DNA from: an uncultured Bacteroidia bacterium
GTDB taxonomy: Bacteria > Bacteroidota > Bacteroidia > NS11-12g > UBA9320
DNA: 62,563 nt
Direction of reading: 5' to 3'
Assembly (NCBI GenBank): GCA_905478335.1
Contig: CAJQIC010000014.1
Coordinates: 1 to 62,563, forward strand
The translations under genes and the position numbers were made by a program. Shown one piece after another: positions 13,174 to 18,856 of the stretch; within the stretch, counting starts at the first letter, position 1; the number at the start of each line of letters is the position of its first letter. The notes under the pieces are model-generated. The model ran no database searches. It saw only the letters and a program-made list of their open reading frames with translations, and was not told the origin of the DNA.

Positions 13174-13838
13174 ATTAGGGGTTGCCACCCCTAACCCGGC
13201 TTTCATTTTATATTTGATGAATCTTGGCTTAGGGCTTCCGCCCTATAACTGGATTTCATTTGTTGCTTGCTTAGGGGTTAGCACCCCTATAACCCGCTTT
13301 TCATTTTTTTCTTGATAAAAAAACGAAACAAAAAAATCAAGACTTCTGAATTTTTCCTTGAACTCTACGAAAGGCTTTTCTTTCCCTCAGCCAAAGCCGC
13401 TGCGCTTTCCTGCCTGCTTAGCGCAAGGCCTGCACACAAAAGCCTTCCTCGTTTTCTACAGAAAACTTCAAAGGTCATATTAAACCATGCACGGGTTAAT
13501 GAGGGGTGGCCCACCAAAAATGCGGGGGACGCGCTGGCCGGTGTGTTAGGGAGCATATTTTTGGGAAGCGTTTTTGACTACTTTTTGCGCTCAAAAAGTT
13601 GGATTGGTTATAGGCTGATAAGCCTAATCGAAGAACAGAAGGCTGATAAGCCCAATGGACGAAAGTTCGACAGCGAAAGCCTAATCGAAGAACAGAATGC
13701 TGATAAGCCTAATGGACGAAGGGTCAATGGCTGATAAGCCTAAGCGACGATAATTATCAGCTCTCAACTATCAATTATCAACTCTCAGCTATCAGATATC
13801 AATTATCAATTATCAGCTATCAGCTATCAACTATCCTC
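13174..13838 (+). repeat. Composite intergenic repeat, copy B (head-to-head)
   Basis: This gap of about 720 bp between sppA and the M28 gene starts with three hairpins with different stems (13177-13192, 13231-13244, 13273-13288). It continues with ACGAAACAAA, then a GC-rich middle that is nearly identical to copy D (about 13335-13470). After that comes the reverse complement of the copy A middle (about 13505-13570), then a tandem of GGCTGATAAGCC hairpin units (13612-13748), and a heptamer array (13753-13836). The 140-codon ORF through it (13312-13734) is a by-product of the repeat and is not called as a gene. Confidence 0.8.
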
Positions 13839-16320: not shown

Positions 16321-16464
16321 TTATTTGTCTTTAACCCATTCACAATGAGATTTGTGAACGTGCTTTCCATATTTATGGTGTTTCGCTTTAAATAAAGACA
16401 GTGCACTAAAGGTTGCAAAGGCCACTATGAATCCTAAGGCAATTAATGGTTTTTTTCGTTTCAT
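16321..16464 (-). CDS. 47-residue membrane peptide with His/Cys-rich tail
   Basis: This small gene encodes one membrane helix (IALGFIVAFATFSALSLF) preceded by MKRKK. The tail, KAKHHKYGKHVHKSHCEW, carries five histidines and one cysteine. The ATG lies 2 nt after the stop of the 89-residue membrane protein gene and a strong terminator follows, so it is the last gene of a transcription unit. The tail could bind a metal or heme, but that is inference from composition only. No family is recognised. Confidence 0.7.
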   Translation of the reverse strand: MKRKKPLIALGFIVAFATFSALSLFKAKHHKYGKHVHKSHCEWVKDK

Positions 16465-16466
16465 CA

Positions 16467-16736
16467 CTAGGCTTCTTTTGGTTCTGTGTAGTAATAACAA
16501 TGGTTGCGTCCAAAGTTGGTTTTGAAGTTTTCATACTCATCTGACTCCATGTTTCGCACGCGTTCAACGAAGGCTAATTTTCTGTTGTGCCAATGTTGAC
16601 GTTTCCATCTACCTCTGCCAGACAGTTTGAAAATAAGTGCTAAAATGGCTAGCACAATAAAGAATCGGAAAGCGACAAAGAAGAGTAGTCCAACTAATAA
16701 TCCGATTGCAATGGTTCTAAAAATGTTCTTAATCAT
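16467..16736 (-). CDS. Small membrane protein with FKT...C tail, sigma-factor associated
   Basis: The 89-residue protein has a hydrophobic N-terminal region (about 6-40, one long or two short helices), then a basic/His segment RGRWKRQHWHNRK and an acidic amphipathic helix RNMESDEYENFKTNFGRNHC. The last segment aligns with NMTDEEKENFKTEWKSRWDKC in the 111-residue protein next to the sigma factor, so the two look like paralogues. A composite repeat of about 500 bp separates them. It may act in the same sensing or regulatory unit as the sigma factor. No database family is asserted. Confidence 0.7.
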   Translation of the reverse strand: MIKNIFRTIAIGLLVGLLFFVAFRFFIVLAILALIFKLSGRGRWKRQHWHNRKLAFVERVRNMESDEYENFKTNFGRNHCYYYTEPKEA

Positions 16737-16808
16737 GTCTTTTTTTGTTTTCTATTAGTGTAGACGGATGAGTTGAAATATTACTTTAATTTTTTTTGTT
16801 TTTTTTTA

Positions 16809-17060
16809 AATTAGGGCTTACCAGCCCTAAATCCCGGTTTTCATTTTTGAGACCAAAAACGAAACAAAAAGTCTTGACAGAAATATGCTTTCCACGCGCT
16901 CTTCAGGATGCCAAGAAAATCTATCAAAAGGGGGTCTGCCTTCAGCAGACAAATGCAAGCACTTTTATTGATTTTCTAAGGCATCCTCAATTCACACAGC
17001 CACCGGCCCGCATTTCTGTTGGGCCCAGGCTCATTTATTTATGCTTGATTTAAGATAACA
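16809..17060 (+). repeat. Composite intergenic repeat, copy C
   Basis: This copy begins with hairpin AGGGCTTACCAGCCCT (16813-16828) and continues with the AT block ending ACGAAACAAA (about 16858-16867). It lacks the 20-nt hairpin module found in copies A and D. The middle is a diverged relative of the copy A middle, with AAATATGC near 16883, CGGCCCGCATTTCTGTTGGGC near 17005, and TTTATGCTTGATTTA near 17036. It interrupts the gene cluster around the sigma factor. The ORF readable through it is not credible. Confidence 0.75.
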
Positions 17061-17300
17061 AATTGGTAAAGTCAAGTGTCCTGCGTCAATTTTTAATTTT
17101 CAATTCTCAATTCTCAATTCTCAACGATCAATTATCAACTCTCAATTAACACTTGTCGCAAGGCGATTTCCTGCGTCAGCTGCTCTGAATAACGAATTGG
17201 TAAAGTCAAGTGTCTTGAGTCAACCAGTCCTGCGTCAATTTTCAATTCTCAACTCTCAACTATCAACTCTCAATTAACACTTGTCCCAACGCGACTTCCA
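17061..17300 (+). repeat. Tandem duplication with heptamer arrays overlapping a gene 3' end
   Basis: The sequence AATTGGTAAAGTCAAGTGTC occurs at 17061 and, unchanged over 20 bases, at 17195. Both are followed by GTCCTGCGTC words, heptamer arrays (about 17087-17147 and 17235-17278), and TTAACACTTGTC. In the right-hand copy the last part is the end of the 111-residue gene (its stop and final codons). In the left-hand copy it is a diverged non-coding duplicate of that gene end. Confidence 0.75.
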
Positions 17301-17609
17301 TTCCGTCTTGAAGTTCTCTTTTTCTTCGTCCGTCATATTCATAAACTTGTCTTTAAAGTGCTTGCGACGACCGCGTTTATGTTTGTTGTTTCCGAATTTT
17401 GATCCGCCAAATAGCAAACGACTCAGGAATATGATACCAAGCATTTGCCAATAGTTCACTTCGGTGACGCCAATTACGTCTGGCAAAACGGCATTCCATA
17501 TCAGCATAACAACACCCACTAGGGCTGCCATTAATCCTGCAAAAAATAGAATTATAAATGCTTTTTTGATCGGTGCAGCATCTCTCATTGTTTGATCTAA
17601 GTCTCTCAT
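17274..17609 (-). CDS. Small membrane protein adjacent to sigma factor
   Basis: The 111-residue protein has two membrane helices (about 15-38 and 50-66) and a cytosolic or periplasmic tail that is first strongly basic (KFGNNKHKRGRRKHFKDKF) and then acidic/amphipathic (MNMTDEEKENFKTEW), ending in a cysteine (WDKC). The ATG lies one base after the sigma-factor stop, so the two are co-translated. Position and membrane topology would suit a co-regulator or anti-sigma role, but it has no zinc-finger or FecR-like domain, so this is only an inference. The tail motif recurs in the 89-residue protein downstream. Confidence 0.75.
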   Translation of the reverse strand: MRDLDQTMRDAAPIKKAFIILFFAGLMAALVGVVMLIWNAVLPDVIGVTEVNYWQMLGIIFLSRLLFGGSKFGNNKHKRGRRKHFKDKFMNMTDEEKENFKTEWKSRWDKC

Positions 17610-17610
17610 A

Positions 17611-18186
17611 TCAATTGTTTAATTCTTTGTATAAATAGTCTAATCTGTTTCGTAAATGTTTTACCGCATAACCCTTGCGACTAATGATTGTCTTGAGGTT
17701 TTCGTTGGTTTGTACCGCTATTTCTTTAAGTGTTTTATCTTCCATCTCGTTCAAGACAAACACCTCACGTTGTTTTTCTGGGAGCTCATCAAGGGCAGAC
17801 ATTAATTCTTCCCAGAATAAGTTTTTAAACAAGGCAAGCTCCGGGTTGCCAGAGTCGTCAATTAATAGAATGTCTTTAAACGAAAACGAATTTTCGTCGT
17901 CATCTACCTTGAAATCCTCTAATGAGGCAGGTTTCTTTTTGCGGTAATTATCGGTAATCCTGTTTCTACTGACATTGTACAGCCATCCACTAATGTTCTC
18001 GATGTCGTCTAAGTTCGTTATCCGACTGAACTGATACCAGACGTCTTGAAGAATGTCTTTGGCGTCTTCGTTATTTCCCACTTTAGACCGAATAAATCCT
18101 GCCAACTGCGCTCCATATTGTTTTACGGAACTCGCTAAAGTTTGCTTGTTTTTCTCAGCCATTTGTGCAGACACTATCGTCTTCAT
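17611..18186 (-). CDS. RNA polymerase sigma factor, ECF type
   Basis: The 191-residue protein contains sigma-70 region 2 (NNEDAKDILQDVWYQFSRI, then NISGWLYNVSRNRITDNYR) and region 4 (ALDELPEKQREVFVLNEMED, then LKEIAVQTNENLKTIISRKG). This is the domain order of extracytoplasmic-function sigma factors. An acidic linker of about 35 residues joins the two. The ATG at 18186 is chosen because a CGTCTTTG box, close to the -7 consensus, ends 5 nt upstream and overlaps the longer ORF start at 18207. The following small membrane protein gene begins one base after its stop. The regulon and signal are unknown. Confidence 0.88.
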   Translation of the reverse strand: MKTIVSAQMAEKNKQTLASSVKQYGAQLAGFIRSKVGNNEDAKDILQDVWYQFSRITNLDDIENISGWLYNVSRNRITDNYRKKKPASLEDFKVDDDENSFSFKDILLIDDSGNPELALFKNLFWEELMSALDELPEKQREVFVLNEMEDKTLKEIAVQTNENLKTIISRKGYAVKHLRNRLDYLYKELNN

Positions 18187-18256
18187 AGTTACAAAGACGA
18201 ACGTCAATCAAAAATACTTTAAATTATTTCAGTTTTTTTTGAAAAGTGCCATCTAT

Positions 18257-18856
18257 CTAGTCTTGTATGGTGTCAAGAACAGTGTTTTCCTGTGTAGCCA
18301 CAAGTGAGTCTAGTAATTGACTTTGCACATATCGGGTGTCGCTTTGGTACTTGGTTAGGATGGTGATAACCGCAGCAAGTGGTGCATGCTCAAAATAGTA
18401 TTCCTCCCAAGGTGTTGTCTTGCCATCTAAAGTCCCACCATTTAGTGAGAGGTACAACTCCAAGTCAATGGGATGGTTCTTGAAGTTTGATTCAATGTAC
18501 CAATGAAAATCAACAATGGATTGCTTTAAATCCTTTATTTCTTGTGATACTGCTGCGGTGGTAATATATCCTTCTCCGTTTTGGCCATAGCCTTCAATTA
18601 GAAACTGCTTGGTAGATTCAAGTTTTTCAACCAATGCTGTGCTGCTGCTATCCAACTGTTTTGCTTTTATTAATCGTTGTTTAGACAGACTAGTATAGTC
18701 GTGTGTGCGTTTTTCTTTTGGCCCTGCCTTATCAAAAGCTTCTTCCATAGCCGTTATAGAATCAACGACTTGTCCTCTGATATACCTCAATGCGAAGACT
18801 GAACCAAAAACAAGAATAATCAATACAATAACGACAACAACGACTCTATTATTCAT
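18257..18856 (-). CDS. Stand-alone GldM N-terminal-domain-like protein
   Basis: The 199-residue protein has one N-terminal membrane helix (about 4-24) and a helical periplasmic domain. Its last part, WEEYYFEHAPLAAVITILTK then YQSDTRYVQSQLLDSL (residues 150-185), closely resembles the end of the D1 helical domain of GldM, the T9SS/gliding motor subunit, where Y.F...P..A....L...QND......... is conserved. GldM is normally about 510 residues with three further beta domains; all are missing here and the ORF ends cleanly. It may be a truncated paralogue, a motor accessory, or a free domain. The GldM link is from remembered sequence, not a search. A TAACTTTG box lies at 18878-18885. Confidence 0.65.
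   Translation of the reverse strand: MNNRVVVVVIVLIILVFGSVFALRYIRGQVVDSITAMEEAFDKAGPKEKRTHDYTSLSKQRLIKAKQLDSSSTALVEKLESTKQFLIEGYGQNGEGYITTAAVSQEIKDLKQSIVDFHWYIESNFKNHPIDLELYLSLNGGTLDGKTTPWEEYYFEHAPLAAVITILTKYQSDTRYVQSQLLDSLVATQENTVLDTIQD

Follow-up and report, generated by a model that had tools for sequence, protein, structure and literature searches.

How the extracytoplasmic function (ECF) sigma factors of the Bacteroidota are restrained is the question raised by a four-gene locus in the genome of an uncultured Bacteroidia bacterium (NS11-12g, UBA9320; assembly GCA_905478335.1). The stretch analysed, referred to as the window, comprises 62,563 nucleotides of contig CAJQIC010000014.1 and carries an ECF sigma gene followed by genes for three small proteins, P2, P3 and P4. 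One survey gives neighbours of the class I anti-sigma (ASDI) type for 6% of Bacteroidetes ECFs versus 32% overall, and it suggests that synteny has been broken or that control is exerted in other ways (PMC7406223). In a sequence-only reading of the locus, the three small proteins had been proposed to form a membrane sensor unit that controls the sigma factor, possibly in response to metals or redox state. Part of this proposal stands, as P2 is conserved together with the sigma gene. The idea of three sensors needs revision, as P3 and P4 look like outputs, with a promoter-like element of their own and with P3-like genes that can be unlinked from the sigma gene. The unit is taken here, at a probability of about 60%, to be a self-activating ECF stress module in which P2 directly restrains the sigma factor.

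Linkage of P2 to ECF Sigma Genes

A P2 model was built from 15 relatives and searched against 395 genomes of the phylum. The counts of P2 and sigma matches are lower bounds, with at most 11 P2 and 8 sigma candidates scored per genome. At least 65 P2 matches were found in 63 of the 395 genomes, 57 of them with E < 1e-10, and all 57 directly adjoin an ECF sigma gene. The sequence-only reading had made its proposal depend on conservation of this kind in relatives, and the conservation is present. In 49 cases P2 immediately follows a sigma gene of the same clade, in five it follows a more distant, Pfam-confirmed one, and in three (G314, G350 and G506) it stands right before the sigma gene. The sigma frames at L220, L226 and L234 became visible once GTG and TTG starts were allowed. 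The two genes are closely spaced, with a sigma-to-P2 gap in 29 loci of 2 to 91 nt (median 12 nt; 30 nt or less in 28).

Among the eight weaker matches, those in G213, G272 and G344 also adjoin a sigma gene, and in G308 (1.6e-5) the P2-like gene lies apart from the sigma match of that genome. Outside the phylum sample, one P2 locus (L015) has no sigma gene beside P2 in its 5.1-kb contig and another (L089) ends at the contig edge. Where it is confidently found, P2 adjoins a sigma gene.

Relatives of P2 also occur on Pantoea megaplasmids (13 records), and Caballeronia (2) and Burkholderia (1) have weaker ones. Two of the Pantoea records were examined. The P2 relative is annotated in them as hypothetical and immediately precedes a gene labelled RNA polymerase sigma factor. 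The two proteins fit the P2 and sigma models, and CGTCTACC is found upstream in the two records.

Organization of the Locus

All four reading frames are present on the minus strand (Table 1), and the arrangement described in the sequence-only reading was borne out. A single base separates the sigma stop from the start of P2, a two-helix protein ending in WDKC. A spacer of approximately 540 bases lies between P2 and P3, and P4 begins 2 bases after P3. P3, which ends in NHCYYYTEPKEA, and P4, which carries HHKYGKHVHKSHC with five His and one Cys, are the 89-residue and 47-residue membrane proteins that had been noted, the former through its NHC...EPKEA end. The true start of the sigma gene is likely the ATG at 18162, giving MAEKNK, as judged by comparison with relatives; the sigma alignment of these relatives starts one residue after the proposed ATG.

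The sigma factor of the window is a short protein with sigma regions 2 and 4 (Pfam). It is matched by four solved sequences, with SigW and CnrH at the top (CnrH, 2.7e-6), and it is an ordinary ECF factor. P2, P3 and P4 gave no match over the curated cut-off in Pfam or NCBIfam, and an Rfam scan of the window returned no matches.

Table 1. Positions of the sigma gene, its small neighbours and the associated elements in the window
Feature	Position	Strand	Basis
ECF sigma-70 factor gene, 191 aa	17611..18186	-	Pfam Sigma70_r2 2.9e-9 and Sigma70_r4_2 5.8e-11; TIGR02937 sigma70-ECF above cut-off
P2, membrane hairpin protein, 111 aa, probable anti-sigma factor	17274..17609	-	Sigma adjacency and charge pattern
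P3, membrane protein with P2-like tail, 89 aa, predicted sigma target	16467..16736	-	Own element copy; profile comparison with P2
P4, His/Cys-tailed peptide with a single helix or signal peptide, 47 aa	16321..16464	-	2 bases after P3
Element TTAAAGTA-N15-CGTCT before sigma gene, predicted self-activated ECF promoter	18195..18222	-	Exact genome match; conservation in relatives
Second element copy, before P3	16762..16789	-	Exact genome match; conserved block in diverged spacer
Inserted interspersed repeat between P2 and P3	16815..17275	.	At least 60 genome matches; missing in closest relative (L008)

Most of the spacer between P2 and P3, 461 bases, is a repeat with TCAATTCTCAATTCTCAA-type runs. 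In the closest relative (L008) the repeat is missing and P2 and P3 are 92 bases apart. The repeat was considered as a part of the unit and rejected, given its matches elsewhere in its own genome and its absence from this relative. It duplicates part of the 3′ end of P2 (17107-17171 versus 17235-17299, 89% identity).

The P2 Family

P2 belongs to a family of two-helix proteins that has no name and is widespread in the Bacteroidota. The part N-terminal to the helices has a net positive charge in 41 of 45 members and the loop is not positive in 42, while the first 25 residues past the second helix are positive, with His counted, in all 45. This charge pattern is consistent with a hairpin whose two ends are inside the cell. 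The most constant residues (M35, L37, W38, N39, P43, Q55, G58, L62, L66 and F67) lie in and around the hairpin. The basic tail carries the motif MTDEEKExFK, has E95 as a constant residue and contains a Cys in 40 of the 45 members.

Solved structures searched with the P2 profile gave nothing relevant, and the NCBIfam matches of 15 members, at E up to 0.1, include no anti-sigma domain. Two faint similarities were recorded. Nine of the 45 members weakly match Metal_resist (PF13801), the best at 2.7e-5, and the P2 of the window itself has no such match up to E 1. NF052278 (AFWIR) matches P2 weakly (0.0047; 17.2 bits against a cut-off of 60). In one locus (L088, genome G064), a single sigma gene is followed by three P2-like genes in tandem.

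A Promoter-Like Element before the Sigma Gene and P3

A repeat search revealed that the regions preceding the sigma gene and P3 are alike. The likeness comes from an element, TTAAAGTA-N15-CGTCT, present in duplicate and overlooked in the sequence-only reading. In the 2.78-Mb host genome the exact element has two sites, both in this unit. It is also present exactly twice in each of three genomes of the same genus, before the sigma gene and before P3 (6/6 exact sites). When the spacers of four relatives are aligned, the element forms a conserved block and its surroundings have diverged.

For the wider phylum, a relaxed form (TAAA[AG]TA-N14..16-[CT]GTC) was sought in the interval from 100 bases upstream to 30 bases downstream of the point where the sigma match begins. 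It is found at 25 of 49 sigma genes with P2 downstream, against a mean of 0.02 in 200 shuffles and 0 on the opposite strand; 30 of the 49 had already been seen when the form was chosen, and among the 19 unseen genes it is present in 5. The strict form has 10 sites in 8 of the 395 genomes. Nine of these lie before the sigma gene (G129, G250 and G366), before P3 (G129, G443, G000, G250 and G192) or before Hsp20 (G125). Three of the strict sites were new, and two of these three are at genes of the module, that of G443 preceding P3 and that of G366 the sigma gene. The third is the tenth site, in G336 (L156, C17:6839-6868), which stands before genes with no evident link to the module.

Work on Flavobacterium treats a CGT box at -10 as a mark of ECF control (PMC9723704). 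A box of the CGT type is present in the element of the sigma gene itself, where CGTCT stands 15 nt behind TTAAAGTA in the predicted promoter. The element is very probably the promoter of this sigma factor. Slightly less weight is given to this view, and slightly more to chance as its rival, than the counts alone would suggest, since most of the strict sites were already in view when that pattern was settled.

A larger regulon in the host genome was considered and, on a reading of the four one-mismatch sites, rejected. Two of these sites fall inside genes. Of the others, that on C15 (L022) overlaps the start of a long frame and may be genuine, and that on C19 (L023) is just behind a frame. An exact site in G040 and a one-mismatch site in G039 are coding DNA of the same enzyme. 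In G389, the element is found before an outer membrane efflux (TolC-type) gene, and a variant in the same genome (L268, C2:288300-289300) precedes frames that resemble RsfS and the start of FtsH, named by reading the sequence.

P3 and P4 as Predicted Targets

The motif that the sequence-only reading had recognized in the first two small proteins is present in both, as MTDEEKENFKT in P2 and MESDEYENFKT in P3. It was recovered by profile-profile comparison (18 hand-picked P3-like proteins against 45 P2 members; 30 columns, 97% probability). DUF4834 (PF16118) matches 7 of the 18 P3-like proteins weakly, the best at 0.0032, and the P3 of the window reaches 15.2 bits against a cut-off of 27.8.

The element followed by a P3-like gene and a P4-like peptide recurs in another family of the order (L086, L087 and L089), and the element followed by P3-like genes is also found in several families of the phylum. 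A second element copy is located downstream of P2 in 10 of 29 loci (L092-L120). Equivalents of P4 after P3 were recognized by eye in L008, L009, L005, L086, L087, L089, L118, L104 and L155. The tails of ten hand-picked P4-like peptides, some of them only loosely alike, carry 3 to 11 His together with one or two Cys.

The P3-like genes are not confined to the neighbourhood of the sigma gene. Hsp20 and a P3-like gene are grouped with the element in G483 and G389, at sites that are not linked to the sigma gene. The P3-like gene of G443 also has the element, lies approximately 1 Mb from the sigma gene and is without Hsp20. These unlinked proteins fit the P3 models (G483, 2e-14, and G443, 7e-17, each with its own row left out; G389, 2.6e-10, never in the model). 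Since the element accompanies unlinked P3-like genes, it is the element, rather than the neighbourhood, that would tie P3 to the sigma factor. P3 and P4 are best read as predicted targets of the sigma factor and not as sensors, because they have their own copy of the element and because P3-like genes can be unlinked from the sigma gene.

Other Neighbouring Genes

Seven of the 57 regions have an Hsp20 gene in the 4.2 kb that follow P2, where approximately 0.1 would be expected (102 Hsp20 genes in 56 genomes); four of the examples were checked by Pfam (PF00011). The downstream regions in L211, L230 and L239 are shortened by contig ends. A 70-aa protein without a name is encoded within approximately 180 nt behind P2 in 10 of the 57 regions (L208, L210, L214, L219, L223, L232, L236, L237, L240 and L260). 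Its predicted structure (pLDDT 90.5) has the HMA copper-chaperone fold, with a TM of about 0.8. The protein has no metal-binding CxxC, and its alignment has FxT at the usual place of CxxC in HMA proteins. In G250 (L143), a protein similar to it is preceded by the element.

MscL follows the sigma gene and a diverged two-helix partner in six loci of one family (L163, L165, L166, L169, L190 and L192), with its identity taken from Pfam on L165 alone. In three genomes (L182-L184), genes of the TetR and TolC types, named by reading the sequence, come after P2.

Two further frames of the window were recorded. Upstream of the sigma gene, a 199-aa protein (18257-18856, minus strand) has a GldM N-terminal domain (Pfam 1.8e-15) and is far shorter than the 524-position GldM model. 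At 13312-13734 on the plus strand, a frame has repeated SLIEEQ[KN]ADKPNGR units at its end.

Proposed Mechanism

The module consists of a predicted promoter, a sigma gene, a linked membrane protein with a tail that is predicted to face inward, and stress genes. This is the layout of an ECF sigma factor under the control of an anti-sigma factor in the membrane. P2 would form a hairpin in the inner membrane, its two termini facing the cytoplasm, and would, most likely, keep the sigma factor inactive. Contact with the sigma factor would probably be made through the basic tail or the conserved membrane hairpin. Disturbance of the membrane or envelope may release the sigma factor, which would then direct transcription at TTAAAGTA-N15-CGTCT. 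The released factor would raise the sigma-P2 operon itself, in a feedback loop, along with a small output set of P3, P4 and, in relatives, Hsp20. P2 is probably an anti-sigma factor of the membrane, of a kind that the known anti-sigma domains do not cover. Hsp20 and the small membrane proteins as outputs, together with MscL as a neighbour, favour a signal of envelope or protein damage. A metal or redox signal is possible and no better supported.

Weighing the Readings

Several findings weigh against a restraining role of P2 and against the promoter assignment. The AlphaFold prediction for P2 has low confidence (mean pLDDT 66.5), and no anti-sigma or FecR family is among the Pfam matches of the 45 P2 members at E up to 0.1, which agrees with the sequence-only reading that P2 resembles neither classical FecR nor zinc-binding anti-sigma factors. 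The linkage is also looser when it is viewed from the sigma gene. Of 85 sigma matches in the clade, 33 are without a P2 match right downstream, three of which have P2 right upstream. Twenty of the other 30 were inspected. In 8 of them (L163, L165, L166, L167, L168, L169, L171 and L173) the two-helix protein right downstream was judged by eye to be a diverged form of P2, its tail being similar, and in 12 there is no P2-like protein downstream. Upstream of 11 of these 12, and on the flanks of four more sigma matches, there is no P2-like frame longer than 70 aa on the sigma strand; the portion examined upstream of the twelfth (G366) is also free of one. Because of these 12 loci, P2 is not obligatory in the wider sigma clade. 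Within the genus, the fourth other genome (G032, 84% complete) has no P2 match. As for the element, with up to 2 mismatches it has 80 sites in its own genome versus 117 for the reversed pattern, so there is no enrichment. The relaxed form is missing at 24 of the 49 sigma genes and at 14 of the 19 previously unseen ones. Seven of the eight genomes with strict sites carry P2, versus 63 of 395 overall, but the Fisher p of 1.4e-5 is inflated because the strict form was chosen with knowledge of the sites in G000, G129, G250, G192 and G125.

The chance reading of the element builds on such numbers. It holds that the second copy is fortuitous or a functionless duplicate and that P3 and P4 are bystanders. 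The element has just 13 fixed bases, and the reversed strict pattern has 9 sites in the 395 genomes against 10 for the true one, which leaves the raw count no higher than chance would give. All nine reversed sites are in genomes without a P2 match. Against the chance reading, the copy forms a conserved block in a diverged spacer, is retained ahead of P3 in a second family within the order and recurs before unlinked P3-like genes in three genomes. This explanation is held to be very improbable. A different doubt concerns P2 itself, which could be an output. It would then protect the membrane and be co-produced with a sigma factor whose control lies in its own transcription or with some other factor. 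G366 retains the element, the sigma gene and Hsp20 with no P2 match, and P3, a strong candidate target, has the tail motif of P2. The placement of P2 beside the sigma gene in every confident case, on either side of it, is that of a regulator, whereas P3 and Hsp20 are sometimes unlinked as targets may be; an output role for P2 is therefore considered unlikely.

The remaining alternative concerns the signal and is compatible with P2 as a restrainer of the sigma factor. The unit may respond to metal or thiol stress, with the Cys in the P2 tail and the His/Cys tail of P4 acting as sensors or buffers of a metal, for example copper or zinc. The prevalence of the tail Cys, the weak Metal_resist similarity, the protein of copper-chaperone fold behind P2 and the His-rich tails in all ten P4-like peptides fit such a role. 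The window P2 lacks the Metal_resist similarity, however, the HMA-fold protein lacks the CxxC, and MscL and Hsp20 suggest stresses of other kinds. A metal or thiol function is somewhat doubtful on this balance.

Comparison with Known Systems

The class I anti-sigma systems, with or without zinc, are similar to the present unit in that a sigma gene and a membrane partner follow each other in a cluster with predicted self-activation. P2 differs in having no recognizable anti-sigma domain and in its short tail after a two-helix hairpin. The CnrYXH system of Cupriavidus metallidurans also combines small membrane proteins with an ECF sigma factor; CnrY is a class II anti-sigma factor and CnrX a periplasmic metal sensor. 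CnrH matches the sigma factor of the window and some P2 members share the faint Metal_resist similarity, whereas the tail of P2 is predicted to be inside the cell and the searches made here gave no link between P2 and CnrY.

FecI-FecR iron signalling, common in the Bacteroidota, likewise pairs an ECF sigma factor with a membrane regulator. The present unit is unlike it in that no FecR match was obtained in the scanned window proteins or the 45 P2 members. YhdL and YhdK of Bacillus subtilis are membrane proteins. These two anti-sigma proteins restrain the ECF factor SigM as a complex (PMC6827917), and P2 is likened to them by description and not by sequence. No paper recognized as describing the sigma-P2 pair was found in a literature search, and the 2021 ECF reclassification may already list the group of this sigma factor.

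Significance

The P2 family is a concrete and widespread candidate for the control of ECF factors in the Bacteroidota, accompanied by a predicted promoter and a small output set. A bolder view, at somewhat less than even odds, makes P2 the first member of a new class of membrane anti-sigma factors, in which a two-helix hairpin monitors the condition of the membrane itself and grips the sigma factor by a short basic tail. If so, the class would be widespread in the Bacteroidota and would extend to the sigma-linked copies on Pantoea megaplasmids. P3, whose tail is the same, would be a second brake or decoy induced by the sigma factor. A part of the Bacteroidota ECF factors that have no known anti-sigma factor would then be accounted for.

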